Assembly (NCBI GenBank): GCA_026645935.1
Contig: JAPKMP010000024.1
Location: forward strand, 1-49,707
DNA length: 49,707 nt
Direction of reading: 5' to 3'
Source: Candidatus Villigracilaceae bacterium
Lineage (GTDB): Bacteria > Chloroflexota > Anaerolineae > Anaerolineales > Villigracilaceae
Made by a program: the position numbers and the translations under genes. Positions 23,635-29,294 of this stretch are shown here, in pieces. The notes under the pieces were generated by a model. That model did not search any database and was not told the DNA's origin. It saw only the letters and a program-made list of their open reading frames with translations. Positions within the stretch are counted from its first letter, which is position 1, and each line of letters opens with the position of its first letter.

Positions 23635-25062
23635 TTAAAGTATATCGTGAAATTTCCTTCGGATAAACTCCTCCCCTTTTTCAATGAACTCGCCATATTC
23701 ATCCGGCACAGGCGCGGAAGCCATCATATCCTGCGTTTTCCGGCGCAAGACCTGACGTGCTGGCGGCGAACCTGCCTCCAACCATTTCTCCATGCTGTAC
23801 CGAGGATAAACGCCACTGACATAATAACCGTTCTTGTAATTCTTCAACGTCGAAGGCTGGTTGAGAAAGCTCTTGCCGGGTCCGACCTTGAATATTTCAT
23901 CCACCGCCGAATTTACATCATCCAACTGAAAGCCGTTGTGGAGGCGCAAAGCCTGGTCGATGATCTCGTGGCAATGGACAAAGGTTGTTGGTGAGATCGA
24001 CTTGGAGCCAAGCGAATCTCCAATGAACGGAGCCAGGTGCCCGTTGGAGAGAAGAAGCGCAAGCGTATTCATCCAGTAGGTATCTGCGGCGATCAGATCC
24101 ATGCCCCAGCCAGTGCCGCTTCCGGATGTTGAACAATGCGGAATTCCGTAATATTTCATCATCTCAGAACAGGCTACGCTGATCAAAATACTTTGCGGAT
24201 CGTAGAAATTCAGCATCGTACGCATGTCAAAATAAACAGGCAGCATGCCGAGCAAAATCGGTGCGCCCTTCTTGATAGTCTGGCTGATAACCAGACCGGC
24301 AAGCAATTCCGCCATGAGCAATGTAAGCGTGCCCGCAGGGGTTAACGGCGTGGACGCCCCCGCCATGCTGTAATTCGAAAAGATGATCGGAAGTCCGCGT
24401 TCGATGGCGACCTTCATCTTGTCCACCGTCCCGGCATTCATTACGAGCGGACTGACCGGATTGAAGTAGGGAATCACGAAAGGCCTATCCCCGACCTCCC
24501 TGCCATGCAGGTACTCGAACATGTCCAGCACGTCTGGAAAACGGTCTTCGTCGGATACCAGCAGGACCAGCGGTTTTGTCGTATTGGCAATGTGTTCCAA
24601 CGAGCCGTACATATCGCCCACTTCCTCCTTTACGTCACGAACGATGCCCACCGTCGAAATCACATCATAATGCTCGAGCATCGAGCCGAGCCGCACGAGG
24701 TCGCGGAAATTTTCACGTTTGAAAATATCGAGTTTCTCATCAAAGGGATTTTGATAAAACAGCGCCGTCACCCCCACCCCAAAGCGCAGGCGATCTTCGC
24801 CCAACTTCAAATTATTATCTCCGCGACGGTCATAAACATCAATGGATTTCGGCGCAGACTTGATCGCCTCTTGAACGACTTCGGACGGGAATCTGATAAC
24901 GCGATCTTGAGACTTCAACCCAAGTTTCCATTCAAGCATTCGTAAAATTACAGGCGAGTCCACGCGCACGCCGGTTTCGGTCAACACCTTTAAAACATTC
25001 CTATGCGCTTCCTGAATCTGTTCTTCATTCATCAAGGTCAATCGCGGGCGGACGTTATTCAT
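23635..25062 (-). CDS. trimethylamine methyltransferase family (MttB-like, non-pyrrolysine)
   Basis: The 475-residue protein belongs to the MttB superfamily (VRPRLTLMNEEQIQEAHRNVLKVL at the N-terminus; STSGSGTGWGMDLIAADTYW and PFIGDSLGSKS later). Members move a methyl group from a quaternary or tertiary amine to a corrinoid protein. No in-frame TAG is present, so this is not the pyrrolysine-containing trimethylamine enzyme; relatives without it use glycine betaine, proline betaine or carnitine. The start at 25062 is preferred because AAGGAG lies 9 bases upstream and the protein then has the family length. No corrinoid protein gene is adjacent. The MetV-MetF fusion at 35575 could belong to the same C1 pathway, which is inference. 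Confidence 0.85.
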   Translation of the reverse strand: MNNVRPRLTLMNEEQIQEAHRNVLKVLTETGVRVDSPVILRMLEWKLGLKSQDRVIRFPSEVVQEAIKSAPKSIDVYDRRGDNNLKLGEDRLRFGVGVTALFYQNPFDEKLDIFKRENFRDLVRLGSMLEHYDVISTVGIVRDVKEEVGDMYGSLEHIANTTKPLVLLVSDEDRFPDVLDMFEYLHGREVGDRPFVIPYFNPVSPLVMNAGTVDKMKVAIERGLPIIFSNYSMAGASTPLTPAGTLTLLMAELLAGLVISQTIKKGAPILLGMLPVYFDMRTMLNFYDPQSILISVACSEMMKYYGIPHCSTSGSGTGWGMDLIAADTYWMNTLALLLSNGHLAPFIGDSLGSKSISPTTFVHCHEIIDQALRLHNGFQLDDVNSAVDEIFKVGPGKSFLNQPSTLKNYKNGYYVSGVYPRYSMEKWLEAGSPPARQVLRRKTQDMMASAPVPDEYGEFIEKGEEFIRRKFHDIL

Positions 25063-25209
25063 AAATTCGATCTCCTTGCCCGCAATTCTATCCCACCTCG
25101 TGAACAGCATAATGGCTTCGGAAGCTTGGATACCGAACAGGCGGCGCAACCTCTCCACTTTTCCACGAGATCACGCCGCCATTTATCCAGCGCCCCACAT
25201 CAACCGATA

Positions 25210-26226
25210 CTACTTTTCCTTCTCCCAGCGTTTTCGGTCGTCGGGTTTATCGGCGTCTAAAAATTTCGGATGGACCTTCTCAAAAACCCGATGACCATGA
25301 GAGGTCCACAGATCGGCGGCGAGGCTGACCGCATCAGCGCGGACACCCTGCGCGGAAAAATACTGGCAGACGCGCTGGACATCCCGCTGGAAGATGCGCC
25401 AGGAGGCAGGGTTGGATTCGGGAATCACAACCTGCGGGAAGTCGATGATCCTTATCCCGCCATCCCAATATAAAATGTTGTAAGCGGAGAGGTCGCCGTG
25501 GATGCGGTCTTTCGAAAGCATGATGTCAATATTGTGGATGACGCGATCGAAGAGAGGCTTCGCCTCATCCCGCTCCAGCAAGATATGGTTGAGCGGAGGC
25601 GCGGAGGTCCCCCGATCGCCGATAAATTCCATCAGGATGGTATTCTTTTCCCTGGCGAACGGTTTTGGCACATCCGCGCCCGCTTCGTACAACATTTCCA
25701 TCGTGACGAACTCATACGCAATCCACGATTGATGCCGCACCTCCTCGCCGTAACTGGTGCGCTTGATGATCGCGTTTACATCCGCCTCCTTCCAAAGCGC
25801 GTGTCCATCTTCATCCAGGTCAGCCCGCCCGACACGGTATAGCTGGTCGTTCTTTAAATTCCGCAGCGAACGCGGACGATAGATCTTCGCCGCAAGGAGC
25901 GGCACATCCACCGCGGGACCCGGCTTGCAAAGATAGACCGAGGCTTCCTTACCAACCTTTACCTTGCGAATCACGTCAGTGATCCATTGATGTTCGGCGA
26001 TCTCCGAAAGCGAATCCAGCAACCAGGCTTCCTCGAAGCGGGCTGCCTTGTATGTAAACCTGAACTCGCGCGAAATTTCCTGGGCCCGGATAAAGAGCCG
26101 CGCCTCCTGCTCCTTTCGTCTGGATTCGCGTTTCTGGGAGATCCGCTTCCGGGTCGAGTCTGAGCCGATTTCCTCGATGGAGCCGTCGAGTTCGTCGAAA
26201 TAATCCAAAAGTTTATTCTTACTCAT
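25210..26226 (-). CDS. RIO-type atypical serine protein kinase
   Basis: The 338-residue protein has the RIO kinase core. This includes a glycine-poor nucleotide loop (KVGKEASVYLCK), the catalytic Lys in LLAAKIYRP, the catalytic loop HGDLSAYNILYW and the metal-binding Asp in IRIIDFPQVV. An N-terminal helical, Lys/Arg/Glu-rich region (TRKRISQKRESRRKEQEARLF shortened) precedes it. RIO kinases act in ribosome maturation in archaea and eukaryotes; the bacterial role is little known. The ATG at 26226 (MSKNKLLDYFDELDG) is chosen, with AGAAGG 11 bases upstream. Two intrinsic terminators and a leader ORF lie in front, so it is probably controlled by attenuation. Confidence 0.88.
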   Translation of the reverse strand: MSKNKLLDYFDELDGSIEEIGSDSTRKRISQKRESRRKEQEARLFIRAQEISREFRFTYKAARFEEAWLLDSLSEIAEHQWITDVIRKVKVGKEASVYLCKPGPAVDVPLLAAKIYRPRSLRNLKNDQLYRVGRADLDEDGHALWKEADVNAIIKRTSYGEEVRHQSWIAYEFVTMEMLYEAGADVPKPFAREKNTILMEFIGDRGTSAPPLNHILLERDEAKPLFDRVIHNIDIMLSKDRIHGDLSAYNILYWDGGIRIIDFPQVVIPESNPASWRIFQRDVQRVCQYFSAQGVRADAVSLAADLWTSHGHRVFEKVHPKFLDADKPDDRKRWEKEK

Positions 26227-26251
26227 TGTGTTATAAACCTTCTCATTAAAC

Positions 26252-26279
26252 AAAAACCACAGGATGCGATATCCTGCGG
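26252..26279 (-). terminator. second terminator ahead of the RIO kinase gene
   Basis: On the minus strand CCGCAGGAT (26279-26271) pairs with ATCCTGTGG (26265-26257) through a 5-base loop with one G-T pair, followed by TTTTT. It lies 25 bases before the kinase start codon, in the 5' leader, and would have to be read through. Confidence 0.7.
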
Positions 26280-26283
26280 CTGA

Positions 26284-26302
26284 GATGGGATGGCGTCCCA
26301 TC
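26284..26302. repeat. palindromic repeat between the two terminators
   Basis: GATGGGA (26284-26290) and TCCCATC (26296-26302) are inverted around 5 bases. It resembles the other short intercistronic palindromes of this window. Confidence 0.5.
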
Positions 26303-26306
26303 CTAC

Positions 26307-26336
26307 AAAAAACCGCAGGCGGGGCGCGCCTGCGGT
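26307..26336 (-). terminator. first terminator, directly after the second leader ORF
   Basis: On the minus strand ACCGCAGGCG (26336-26327) pairs perfectly with CGCCTGCGGT (26321-26312) through a 5-base loop and is followed by a run of six T. It starts 17 bases after the leader stop codon, the spacing expected for an attenuator. Confidence 0.8.
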
Positions 26337-26353
26337 CGTCGGTTTGAAAGCGA

Positions 26354-26416
26354 TTACGACACGCACAAAGGAGGCGCGCTGAACAGAATGGCAGTGAGTA
26401 ACGATTTGCCTTGCAT
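26354..26416 (-). CDS. 20-residue leader peptide upstream of the RIO kinase
   Basis: A 20-codon ORF starts at an ATG 8 bases after a full-strength Shine-Dalgarno (AAAGGAGG). It begins M-Q-G-K-S-L-L, contains F-S-A-P-P and ends L-C-V-S. It has its own promoter (26456-26484), and the -10 to ATG distance is 40 bases, nearly the same as in the leader at 2061. The 3' part contains CCTCCTTT, a copy of the anti-Shine-Dalgarno end of 16S rRNA, which can pair with the leader's own ribosome binding site. Two terminators follow before the kinase gene. The coding call rests on these signals, not on homology. Confidence 0.6.
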   Translation of the reverse strand: MQGKSLLTAILFSAPPLCVS

Positions 26417-26433
26417 GTTTTCGAGCCTCCTTT
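26367..26433 (-). promoter_or_regulatory. inverted repeat covering the leader Shine-Dalgarno
   Basis: Plus-strand AAAGGAGGC (26367-26375) and GCCTCCTTT (26425-26433) are perfectly complementary over 9 bp, with CAC/GTG pairing beyond after a one-base bulge. In the RNA the second leader's Shine-Dalgarno would be paired with the Pro-Pro-Leu codons near its end. Ribosome position would decide which fold forms. Confidence 0.6.
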
Positions 26434-26455
26434 CGTGGAATGAGATTGTGATCGA

Positions 26456-26484
26456 ATTTTATGCCAGTGGCGATGACGCGTCAA
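26456..26484 (-). promoter_or_regulatory. promoter for second leader ORF and RIO kinase
   Basis: On the minus strand TTGACG (26484-26479) is followed by an exactly 17-base spacer and TAAAAT (26461-26456). The -35 overlaps the stop codon of the EamA gene upstream. The predicted start of transcription is near 26449. Confidence 0.7.
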
Positions 26485-27383
26485 GCCCCAGTTTTGCGGT
26501 AGAACGCAGCCAGCCAAACCCCGGCAATAACGATCAGACCGCCGATGGCAAAGGGCAAAGTGACCTTTTCATTTGCCAGCAACGCCGCCAGGACGGTAGC
26601 GGTCAGCGGGAAAAATAGAATGGAATAGGATGCTGCGGAAGCCGTCCATCGAGTAAGGACGTAGACGAACATATAAAACATCATCACTGAGCCAAATAGA
26701 ATAAGGTAGACAAGGGCAGTCCAACCGGTCGAGGTGGAAGGTAAATCCCACGTTTCCTGCGCAACGACCGAGGCAATGCCAAGGAATAATGCCCCGGCAA
26801 ACAAGGACAAGGCATTGATTATGATTGGGTTGCTTTTCACAGTATATATCTTGAAAATAATATTCCCTTCCGCGCCGATCAACGCTCCAAATAGCAAGGC
26901 GATGATGCCGGGAATTAATTCACGTCCACCCGGCTGGGCATTGACGGCAATTGCCAGCCCGGCGAATGCCACCAGTCCGCCGATGAGAGATCGAAGACGG
27001 AAACCTTCAAGGCGATGCAAAACCGCCAACACCAGGGTGAATAGCGGTCCGGTCGAGATGACGATGGTGGCAAGACTCACAGGAACGGTTTGCAAGCCCC
27101 AATACAGCAAGGCGAAGCCCACACCTGTGGAGACGAATCCGTTGACGGCAATCACAGCGGCATCTTTGATCGTTGGCATGGACATTTTCCGCCAGAACAG
27201 TATCACCCAGTAGATCAATGCCGCAGGCATGAGGCGAAGGAAAGCTCCCCAGAACGGAGCCAATTCCAGATTACTAAAACGAATGGCGACCGAATTCGAA
27301 CCTCCGAGCAAAACGACAAGGAGGAAAGCGATGAGGGATTTATTATCGGGACGGTGCAGGGAAATTTCAGTCATATCTCTCAT
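26481..27383 (-). CDS. EamA/DMT-family transporter
   Basis: The 300-residue protein has ten hydrophobic segments in two repeated halves, as in EamA (drug/metabolite) transporters. The first half is LIAFLLVVLLGGSNSVAIRF and onward; the second starts near LIPGIIALLFGALIGAEGNI. These proteins export amino acids, metabolites or drugs; the substrate here is unknown. The start is either ATG at 27383 (MRDMTEISL) or the ATG three codons later (27374). Neither has a strong Shine-Dalgarno. It follows the hydrolase gene by 18 bases and may be co-transcribed. Its 3' end carries the -35 of the next promoter. Confidence 0.85.
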   Translation of the reverse strand: MRDMTEISLHRPDNKSLIAFLLVVLLGGSNSVAIRFSNLELAPFWGAFLRLMPAALIYWVILFWRKMSMPTIKDAAVIAVNGFVSTGVGFALLYWGLQTVPVSLATIVISTGPLFTLVLAVLHRLEGFRLRSLIGGLVAFAGLAIAVNAQPGGRELIPGIIALLFGALIGAEGNIIFKIYTVKSNPIIINALSLFAGALFLGIASVVAQETWDLPSTSTGWTALVYLILFGSVMMFYMFVYVLTRWTASAASYSILFFPLTATVLAALLANEKVTLPFAIGGLIVIAGVWLAAFYRKTGA

Positions 27384-27401
27384 TTCATTAAATTAAAGCG
27401 C

Positions 27402-28490
27402 TCATTTCACATACTTATCAAAAAACAACTGGGTCTTTGCCATGAAAACGAACCATGGATCGCCAATAAAGGAGTGCTCTTCGCCTTGATAGCCGAATAT
27501 CTGCGCCTCCACACCGGCTTCGATAAAGGCATCGTACATTTTCTTCGACCACTCGGGCGGCGTGCCTGCAGAGGTTTTCCCGTCTTCAGTGCCATACACA
27601 ATCTGGACAGGGGCTTTGACCTTGTCAAAATGATAGAGCGGAGAAACAGCCTCCAGCATAACCGGGTCCGTCGTCGCGTCGAAGTATGAGGCGGTGAGGT
27701 TGGGAGGCAAATCCAGCGGGAGGATATCCGAGGAGTTGCATCCGAATGCCGCTTCGCCTTCGTAAACATCCCCCACACAGCCGGGACCCCAGCGGGCGAT
27801 GACATCGGCAAAATCGGCACTGACAGATGAATACAGAACGGCGGCTTTGATGCGATCCTCAACGATGGTGAGGACTTTGGCGGTGATGCCGCCGCCCATG
27901 CTGTGACCCCACATGCCGATGCGGGTTGTATCCGCTTCGGGTATGGATGGGAGCGCATACATCAAATTGACGACATCGATGACCTGCCCGGAGTAGAACA
28001 AACTCTCGCCGGTATCCGAGCCGCCCCAACTGCGATAATCTGATGAAACGGTCAGATAGCCTTTGCGGTTGAGAAAATCGGCGGCGCGATCAGTACCGTC
28101 GCCGGAATTGTAGATGTAGCGAGAAAAGAACCCATGATTCATCACAATGACAGGATAGGGCGGCTCGCCCGCCTTTGGAATTTGCAGAACACCGGTGATG
28201 GTCAAGCCATCGCTGGGATATTGAATCAGGTAACGCGTGAAATGGTCGGTATCGAGGAGGGTTTCGCGGATCGTGATCCTCCCGTTTTCAAATTCGCGCC
28301 TGCGCAAACCCGCGATGGTGTACGGCTCGATGGATTCTTCCCTCGTAAGTGTTGCGGTGGGAACAGGGGTCTTCGTCGGCTCGAGAGTCGGGGGGACAAT
28401 TGTGACGATCAATTGCGCCGGGGTAGGCGCGGCGACTTGCGCCGCGGAACAAGCCGATACAAAAAGCCCCAAAACCAGCAGTCGTTTCAT
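27402..28490 (-). CDS. alpha/beta-hydrolase lipoprotein (copy 1)
   Basis: The 362-residue protein begins with a signal peptide and lipobox LFVSAC (Cys about 14), a Thr/Pro linker (PPTLEPTKTPVPTATLT) and an alpha/beta-hydrolase domain of the prolyl-oligopeptidase/dienelactone type. The nucleophile motif is GHSMGGG (Ser about 195), the oxyanion region is VIVMNHGF, the likely acid Asp is in VYGTEDG and the likely catalytic His is in GEEHSF. It is probably an esterase or peptidase held at the outer face of the membrane. The gene at 29537-30631 is a close paralogue with the same layout, including the conserved Cys in WGPGCVGDVYEGEAAFGCNS. Confidence 0.87.
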   Translation of the reverse strand: MKRLLVLGLFVSACSAAQVAAPTPAQLIVTIVPPTLEPTKTPVPTATLTREESIEPYTIAGLRRREFENGRITIRETLLDTDHFTRYLIQYPSDGLTITGVLQIPKAGEPPYPVIVMNHGFFSRYIYNSGDGTDRAADFLNRKGYLTVSSDYRSWGGSDTGESLFYSGQVIDVVNLMYALPSIPEADTTRIGMWGHSMGGGITAKVLTIVEDRIKAAVLYSSVSADFADVIARWGPGCVGDVYEGEAAFGCNSSDILPLDLPPNLTASYFDATTDPVMLEAVSPLYHFDKVKAPVQIVYGTEDGKTSAGTPPEWSKKMYDAFIEAGVEAQIFGYQGEEHSFIGDPWFVFMAKTQLFFDKYVK

Positions 28491-28534
28491 GCCCGGTATT
28501 TTACTTTATGACACTTTTTTGGTGAATTTTTTAC

Positions 28535-28563
28535 TTGTTTGCTGGGCAGGCGGGCTGTATAAT
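28535..28563 (+). promoter_or_regulatory. promoter for the small membrane protein gene
   Basis: TTGTTT (28535-28540), a 17-base spacer and a perfect TATAAT (28558-28563). Transcription would begin near 28570, leaving about 140 bases of untranslated leader before the ATG at 28710; I see no recognisable riboswitch there. Confidence 0.6.
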
Positions 28564-28709
28564 TCAATATATAAGGTCTTTTATATCGAAATTAAAACAC
28601 ACATCTGACGCCTGGGACTGCCTGTCAGGAGATAGTTTACGATTTACCTCTCTCCCCGTCGAAAGACGACCCCGTTTGTAATTAAATAAACAACAGGAAG
28701 GAGATCGCA

Positions 28710-29294
28710 ATGAAAACCACATCCTTATTTCAGCTCGGAGGGATCGCCGTTCTCCTCTCGGCGTCCCTGACGGGCCTTGGTCGCCTGATCTATTACCTGT
28801 CCGAGCAGCCGGTCCTGCCGACCATGCTGGACACATGGCGCGGAATTATGGCAGGCGCCCTATTCATTCTGGGATTTGGCGCTGTCTATGCACGCCAGTC
28901 TAAAGCGGGCGGCATCCTTGGATTGATCGGCTATATCCTCATCATGCTCGCTCAACTGTATTTTGTTGCGAGCGATGCTGTCAGCCTGGAAGTGGTTGCA
29001 GGATTGGCTACTGAAGAACAAATAGCGCAAGTACCCGCGTATGCTGTGTCCAGTTCCTTACTGCAGTGGGTTTGGGTGGCAGGTCTGCTTGTTTTCGGCA
29101 TATCGATTTACCGTACACAGGTGTTTCCGAAGCAGGCCGGTCTGCTTCTTGTGCTGCTGGGTCTGATCCAACCGCTTACGGTGTCGCTGGTATGGGCACG
29201 GGTCATCTATATACTCCTTTATGTCATTGGCTGGGGTTGGCTCGGCTGGGACTTGTATTCCAAAGCCGGCATCCAAATAGATGAAAATCCATAA
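28710..29294 (+). CDS. six-helix membrane protein of unknown function
   Basis: The 194-residue protein has about six hydrophobic segments (starting GGIAVLLSASLTGLGRLIYYL and ending YILLYVIGWGWLGWDLYSK) and short loops. It has no signal peptide and no recognised motif. AAGGAG lies 7 bases before the ATG, and a good promoter lies upstream at 28535-28563, so expression is credible. It stands alone on the plus strand between the two paralogous lipoprotein hydrolases. I do not recognise the family. The following 240 bases hold no clear gene. Confidence 0.75.
   Translation: MKTTSLFQLGGIAVLLSASLTGLGRLIYYLSEQPVLPTMLDTWRGIMAGALFILGFGAVYARQSKAGGILGLIGYILIMLAQLYFVASDAVSLEVVAGLATEEQIAQVPAYAVSSSLLQWVWVAGLLVFGISIYRTQVFPKQAGLLLVLLGLIQPLTVSLVWARVIYILLYVIGWGWLGWDLYSKAGIQIDENP

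Follow-up and report, generated by a model that had tools for sequence, protein, structure and literature searches.

Transcription attenuators of the trp type are built on the pairings 1:2, 2:3, and 3:4 between regions of a leader RNA. Another set of leaders carries short upstream ORFs (uORFs), those of vmlR, bmrBCD, toiL, and DUF1127, which have been shown or proposed to sense stalled ribosomes or ribosome availability (PMC9226507; PMC4191407; PMC12121999; PMC12218461). In Bacillus subtilis, the vmlR leader combines a short uORF with an anti-antiterminator, an antiterminator, and an intrinsic terminator; the inducing drugs stall initiating ribosomes, and sequence variants of the uORF occur in other Bacilli (PMC9226507). 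The bmrBCD genes of the same species specify an ABC multidrug transporter, and translation of their leader ORF is required (PMC4191407). In the toiL-topAI system of Escherichia coli, stalling at the uORF start codon by tetracycline or retapamulin switches the RNA structure (PMC12121999). As far as the accessible parts of these reports go, the uORFs that respond to stalled initiation are single-gene cases from Bacillus, Clostridioides, Staphylococcus, and E. coli (PMC12121999; PMC9226507). A literature search outside most subscription journals found no published leader of this type in Chloroflexota or before RIO genes, and the main text of a survey of 104 motifs contains no "RIO" and names Chloroflexi only in the entries Chloroflexi-1 and pan (PMC2864571).

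Here we describe a leader ahead of a RIO-domain kinase gene in a 49,707-nucleotide stretch of DNA from a Candidatus Villigracilaceae bacterium (hereafter the window, meaning the whole of this stretch). Judging from its sequence, we think it likely that this leader is a ribosome-mediated attenuator of the anti-antiterminator/antiterminator/terminator kind that would induce RIO when initiation or early elongation is impaired.

Leader Anatomy

The earlier note on this DNA had described a promoter, a 20-codon ORF, a terminator, a palindrome, and a second terminator, and all of these are present where it had placed them (table 1). Together with the Shine-Dalgarno (SD) motif AAAGGAGG and an anti-SD-like segment they make up one leader. 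The promoter scores 10 of 12, the top sigma-70-like site within positions 24000–29000, and starts one base before the stop codon of the upstream EamA gene, overlapping that stop. The SD AAAGGAGGC (26433–26425) is complementary over 9 bp to GCCTCCTTT (26375–26367), which lies within the ORF. Overlapping this segment, GCGCGCCT (26379–26372) is also complementary to AGGCGCGC (26331–26324) in the arm and loop of the first terminator, an alternative pairing that is absent from the earlier account. A detector for this arrangement (an SD, a short ORF, and a segment able to pair with both the SD and a terminator arm or loop) finds a single site on both strands of the window.

Table 1. Positions of the leader elements and of the RIO gene in the window.
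Feature	Position	Strand	Remark
Sigma-70-like promoter, TTGACG-17-TAAAAT	26456..26484	-	TTGACG 26484-26479, 17 bases, TAAAAT 26461-26456
Region 1, leader ORF Shine-Dalgarno, AAAGGAGGC	26425..26433	-	Pairs with region 2; covariation
Leader ORF, ATG to TAA, 20 codons + TAA, MQGKSLLTAILFSAPPLCVS	26354..26416	-	Sequence reading
Region 2, GCGCGCCTCCTTT	26367..26379	-	Partner: region 1 (via 26375-26367) or region 3 (via 26379-26372)
First intrinsic terminator, ACCGCAGGC...GCCTGCGGT + T run	26307..26336	-	Arm + loop 26336-26324 (region 3), arm 26320-26312 (region 4)
Region 3 core, AGGCGCGC, antiterminator strand (terminator 5' arm plus loop)	26324..26331	-	Complementarity, covariation
Palindrome GATGGGA-CGCCA-TCCCATC, between the terminators	26284..26302	-	Sequence reading
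Second intrinsic terminator (regions 5 and 6), CCGCAGGAT...ATCCTGTGG + T run	26252..26279	-	5' arm can pair with region 4
RIO-domain kinase gene, 338 aa, ATG at 26226	25210..26226	-	Pfam RIO1 match; gene behind the leader

The anti-SD segment had been described as the anti-SD sequence of 16S rRNA, pairing with the leader's own ribosome binding site (RBS). The 9-bp pairing stands; the likeness to 16S rRNA fares less well, and since the base after CCTCC pairs in only 22 of 45 leaders, region 2 is best read, on its sequence, as a match to the SD of the same leader, to which it is complementary.

Several candidate signals were set aside. Terminator-like sites near the leader are no more frequent than chance (6 found vs. 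5.7 expected), and their number was dropped as evidence because shuffled sequence gives as many. The palindrome was rejected as a conserved part, as it recurs only in L034, the closest relative compared. Pairing of a 5' box, ATCTCATT, with the RIO RBS seemed by eye to be a matter of chance. Other leaders, also judged by eye, have other spacers. No Rfam family reaches its gathering score in the window, and none appears up to an E value of 5 in positions 1300–1700 of L024.

Conservation across Relatives

A search of the bacterium's own genome and 40 relatives with its own RIO protein found 23 RIO genes in 22 of the 41 genomes. Two loci (L005 and L007), whose upstream regions are cut by contig ends, were excluded. 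All 21 assessable RIO genes, the window's own included, are preceded by an SD, AAAGGAGG[CT], and, 40–130 bases on, by G[CT]GCCT. The full pairing scheme (SD, ORF, overlapping 1:2 and 2:3, and terminator) scores at least 40 in 20 of them and 32.8 in L022. Conservation upstream of the RIO genes of relatives, which had been named beforehand as a refutation test, was thus looked for and found. One genome holds a second, divergent RIO gene (L023, G022:C36; 35% identical to the query) with its own copy of the leader, and the RIO match of G023 (L017) contains one internal TAA.

We built one covariance model (R1) from 18 leaders, aligned with MAFFT (alignment A1), and a second (R2) from 45 (alignment A3). 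A3 omits L019, L021, and L022, in whose leaders R1 had no match at E 0.5. The start of L020 in A1 and part of L063 in A3 are misaligned, and both leaders were counted; alignment A2 (68 matches, chance ones among them) was left out of the analysis. A promoter-like hexamer pair stands upstream of the SD in 37 of the 45 leaders, with a spacer of 17 in 34 and of 18 in 3.

R1 matched 33 of 61 genomes at E 0.01. R2 matched 37 of the 396 genomes sampled from the class, 141 of these 396 having RIO, and 17 of 400 in the phylum sample, all 17 in the bacterium's own order. Of the 25 genomes of its own family in the class sample, 14 have RIO, each with a leader match, and none of the 11 without RIO has one. 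We rejected as a general rule that leader and RIO occur together or not at all, since it is limited to these 25 genomes and is broken in the genus sample by G008, G015, and G020, which have leader matches without a RIO match.

Outside the family, we scored 60 upstream regions of RIO genes (L101–L160), hand-picked from the class list of RIO genomes. With the threshold of 40, set after seeing the score table, 16 of the 60 pass and 44 fall below, compared with none of 180 dinucleotide shuffles and none of 60 reverse complements; the corresponding counts are 20 of 60, 4 of 180, and 0 at a threshold of 35, and 9, 0, and 0 at 45. Scores of 35–39 (L140, L132, L137, and L138) were left uncounted, as were L111, L122, and L132, which look similar by eye. 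An earlier, stricter detector accepted 14 of the 60, and R2 at E values up to 1 marks 13. Among 25 new loci from the class search, 18 reach 40 and 7 do not; in L082 the best 2:3 pairing uses another hairpin. L096, a model match, has no SD and ORF by the detector and no known gene behind it, and L099 ends at a contig end. Before the RIO genes of one genus (g153; L101, L102, L106, and L123), the uORF begins ATGAG, and GCTCCATATG, which spans its RBS and start, has a possible pairing partner further on in CATATGGAGC or CATGTGGAGC; by eye there is no clear terminator nearby, and perhaps another mode of switch operates there.

Pairing and Covariation

The antiterminator pairing 2:3, which was absent from the search model, is supported by covariation in A3. 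Of its cells 89.5% are paired, and 23 show double changes, compared with 7.2 ± 2.2 in shuffled alignments; the covariation score is 0.252 versus 0.181, and neither value is reached in any of 500 shuffles. These raised measures count sequences rather than events and ignore relatedness, for which slid registers are the only control; there the double-change cells number 0 to 5. Four of the pairs that join columns 84–88 with 179–183 show changes on both sides, and letters of the terminator loop, which lie outside its stem, covary with region 2. The number of pairs with a double change is not raised (5 vs. 4.0, reached in 152 of 500 shuffles), nor is that of further pair types (11 vs. 11.5, 390 of 500). 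On the 18 leaders of A1, five cells compare with 1.6 (2 of 500), and the same two measures are again not raised (41 and 408 of 500).

For 1:2, A3 gives 11 double-change cells versus 2.3 shuffled (0 of 500), a count that leans towards the model because A3 was fitted to one with 1:2 and 3:4 (the 2:3 count leans less); pairs (2 vs. 1.0, 34 of 500) and types (5 vs. 5.0, 471 of 500) are not raised. On A1, 1:2 taken with 3:4 gives one cell versus 0.1 (26 of 500). In L068 and L069 both helices change together (GAGATA:TATCTC; GTGTATCT with AGGTACAT/AGGTACAC). In L092, 1:2 reads GGAGGTGTATT:AATACACCTCC and 2:3 reads AATACACCT:AGGTGTATT; region 3 there repeats the RBS sequence. Such recurrence of the scheme in other letters is the best independent support for it. 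Complementarity and covariation together give two marks of an attenuator: an antiterminator and an intrinsic terminator that are mutually exclusive, and an upstream strand that sequesters the antiterminator, that is, an anti-antiterminator.

The Leader ORF

An ORF of 16–22 codons, with an ATG after the SD, is open in all 45 aligned leaders when counted from the earliest ATG with 14 codons or more behind it (the plain first ATG gives 7 codons in L068). The distance from the ATG to the CCT of region 2 varies from 30 to 45 nt in steps of 3, with phase 0 in 45 of 45. The stop codon follows region 2 after 14 nt in 24 leaders, 17 nt in 18, and 20 nt in 3. Identities at codon positions 1, 2, and 3 over codons 2–11 are 0.335, 0.387, and 0.404, and on this basis peptide conservation was rejected as a signal. 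None of the 45 leader peptides has a run of regulatory codons for one amino acid as in trp-, his-, or leu-type leaders. Because the ORF stays open and region 2 is locked in phase while the peptide is not conserved, the pattern fits a ribosome that would need to traverse region 2 rather than a specific arrest peptide.

The in-frame CCT of region 2 in all 45 leaders, with Pro-Pro in 38, could also be taken to mean that ribosomes stall at an (A/V)PP motif in the leader peptide, as in a sensor of Pro-Pro synthesis or EF-P. We regard this as very improbable. Pro-Pro is lost in 7 of the 45 (L032, L035, L046, L048, L065, L068, and L069) while the 1:2 core is still paired, in L068 and L069 through compensating changes; distant leaders such as L099, L100, and L119 use other frames; and a ribosome stalled at Pro-Pro would mask region 2 and so lead to termination. 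We give hardly any credence to the view that the hairpins are constitutive terminators of the EamA gene and the small ORF incidental. As the leader promoter overlaps the EamA stop codon, the hairpins do also lie downstream of EamA, but the upstream sequence varies by eye among relatives while the leader stays, the helices covary, the ORF is locked in phase, and the leader also stands before other operons.

Genes behind the Leader

We read the genes behind 70 model matches (the 45 of A3 and 25 from the class search) by tblastn with 12 reference proteins; the unread matches, none of them with an assigned locus, are eight weak ones of the class sample and five of the genus sample (G047:C120, G046:C11, G019:C227, G045:C6, and G008:C92). 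RIO is the first recognized gene behind 39 of the 70, and behind 5 more SnoaL comes first with RIO next. An ABC ATPase leads in 15, and in 12 of these an ABC-2 permease stands after it. Other ABC transporters, Xaa-Pro aminopeptidases (M24), and GNAT acetyltransferases take first place in 3 cases each, and in 2 no gene was recognized. L081 has GNAT and then RIO, and in L095 a RIO match lies further along the same contig; the product at L092 has no Pfam match and is GNAT-like by eye only. In G015 (L068) and G020 (L053), two of the genomes without a RIO match, the leader precedes the ABC operon. The bacterium's own genome has a second copy of the leader (G000:C69:101843-101990; E 7e-11 with R1) before an ABC ATPase and an ABC-2-type permease, families assigned through the homologs of a relative.

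The window kinase carries a RIO1 domain (Pfam PF01163; 114.1 bits, cut-off 22; E 7.7e-33). Its nearest relative of solved structure is Rio1 (1zp9; E 5.6e-21), the nearest ones including both Rio1 and Rio2 kinases, and the NCBIfam models for halobacterial Rio1 and PA4780 match it below their cut-offs. About 50 bp after the RIO gene lies an MttB trimethylamine methyltransferase gene (PF06253; 23635–25158, minus strand); by eye, a gene similar to MttB follows RIO in L071, L072, L074, and L075.

RsgA is a GTPase of 30S maturation. At L021 (G027:C71) the leader, RsgA, and RIO form one apparent operon, which possibly keeps a link to ribosome biogenesis. RsgA was rejected as a usual neighbor, as it was found beside the leader at this single locus among 176 at E 1e-8. 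This operon bears on the possibility of feedback through ribosome maturation: RIO would aid maturation of 30S subunits, and immature 30S subunits would bind the SD without elongating, freeing region 2 so that RIO is made. The same RNA anatomy would serve, and the nearest solved relatives of the kinase point in the same direction. We nevertheless consider it unlikely, given the ABC, M24, and GNAT genes that come first behind other leaders and the rarity of RsgA; the action of bacterial RIO on ribosomes would here be hypothetical. Of the earlier reading, in which control of the kinase by translation of the leader makes a feedback loop, the SD-sequestering segment and the terminator before RIO hold. 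Because the leader precedes ABC, M24, and GNAT genes and occurs in G008, G015, and G020 without a RIO match, a general switch for translation stress would fit better than RIO autoregulation.

Proposed Mechanism

The sequences show the parts of the leader and how far they are conserved, that 1:2 and 2:3 covary, and that the ORF is open and phase-locked. We infer that the ORF is translated, and likewise the direction of the response and its signal. In the attenuator that we propose, 1:2 (the anti-antiterminator) and 3:4 (the terminator) are compatible and would together give the OFF state, whereas 2:3 (the antiterminator) excludes both and would give the ON state. Region 2 falls in the last third of the ORF, and a freely translating ribosome would cover it while regions 3 and 4 are made, so that transcription would end. 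A ribosome or 30S subunit held on the start or first codons would instead hide region 1, and the freed region 2 would catch region 3, allowing RIO to be transcribed. Inhibitors that stall ribosomes at start codons, cold, and defective subunits may be such inducing states.

We folded transcripts of the 45 leaders ended before region 4, with the bases under the ribosome kept unpaired. With a ribosome on the start codon, the mean predicted probability of 2:3 is 0.90 (at least 0.5 in 41 of 45; in the other 4, 2:3 is not predicted even then), and with a ribosome over codons 10–17 it is about 0. The prediction for the window leader is 1.00 with the ribosome at the start and 0.00 for naked RNA. Naked RNA gives a predicted mean of 0.53, and 25 of the 45 leaders reach at least 0.5. 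Among them is L034 with 0.73, although its sequence is nearly that of the window leader. When the ribosome is on the last one or two codons, region 2 is predicted to be partly open in many leaders, the window's included.

Second Terminator

With 2:3 formed, region 4 is left free and may take up the second terminator's 5' arm (4:5), which would disarm that terminator as well. The 4.33-Mb genome holds three copies of the motif CCGCAGG..CCTGYGGTTTT: both terminators here and that of the ABC leader. In the own family and near it (57 of the 70 matches, threshold 14; L085 and L087 without a recognized first terminator), a second hairpin follows 27 of the 57 leaders, and in 23 of these 27 a pairing of 7–10 bp is possible between its 5' arm and the 3' arm of the first hairpin. 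The letters of 4:5 differ in step in L051 and, in another family, in L021 (CGTGGCCG:CGGCCACG). Duplication of a terminator would also give 4:5 complementarity. Among 34 leaders of distant families (threshold 16), 9 of 12 second hairpins pass for 4:5, compared with 58 of 132 permuted pairs. Equilibrium folding of 19 leaders favors 4:5 over 5:6 in 9 when 2:3 is forced and in 1 when it is not; the 9 do not include the window leader, which is predicted to prefer 5:6 (0.83) with 2:3 forced. We infer a relay through the second terminator as a possible but weakly supported feature; if real, it would be a simple design for a tighter switch.

A Possible Regulon

More tentatively, Anaerolineae may possess a translation-stress regulon under one homologous RNA switch that has the SD as its sensor strand. 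RIO kinases might then serve as stress effectors, in defense against drugs or stalled ribosomes, rather than as housekeeping proteins, and in many leaders the two terminators might be coupled like dominoes (1:2, 3:4, and 5:6 off; 2:3 and 4:5 on). Across a class of Chloroflexota, one homologous leader without an Rfam match is found ahead of genes from several families. This would place RIO kinases with transporters and acetyltransferases under one signal and would provide a concrete candidate for the condition that induces bacterial RIO kinases.

Comparison with Known Systems

The leader shares the 1:2, 2:3, and 3:4 logic of trp-type attenuators and differs from them in having no run of regulatory codons and in using the SD as region 1. 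Like bmrBCD it would represent ribosome-mediated transcription attenuation; the bmrBCD leader has 53 codons, and its terminator is within its coding region (PMC4191407). Start-codon stalling switches the structure in toiL-topAI, as we propose here, but there, as the available text describes it, the switch acts on topAI translation and Rho-dependent termination, whereas the RIO leader holds an intrinsic terminator (PMC12121999).

The DUF1127 uORF of Sinorhizobium meliloti raises the possibility of a sensor of ribosome availability, in which any ribosome on the RBS, and not stalling, would be read out. The two leaders share a pairing between the RBS and C-rich codons in the uORF. In the accessible description, however, the C-rich codons of DUF1127 lie at the start of the ORF, and masking them relieves attenuation (PMC12218461); here the C-rich segment lies near the ORF end, its alternative partner is a terminator arm, and its masking should favor termination. 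We thus find this reading distinctly improbable.

The proposed attenuator resembles vmlR in its short uORF and its order of anti-antiterminator, antiterminator, and terminator (PMC9226507). From what the accessible text reports, the vmlR uORF encodes a tripeptide and its SD is single-stranded before SL-1, whereas in the RIO leader the SD is itself the anti-antiterminator strand, with its partner inside a 20-codon ORF. The RIO leader also belongs to a different phylum and to different genes, has tandem terminators, and is known here from sequence, vmlR from its response to drugs. We conclude that the leader is real, that it is conserved and has the anatomy of a translation-coupled attenuator, and that it would be new in sequence, phylum, and gene set and known in kind.
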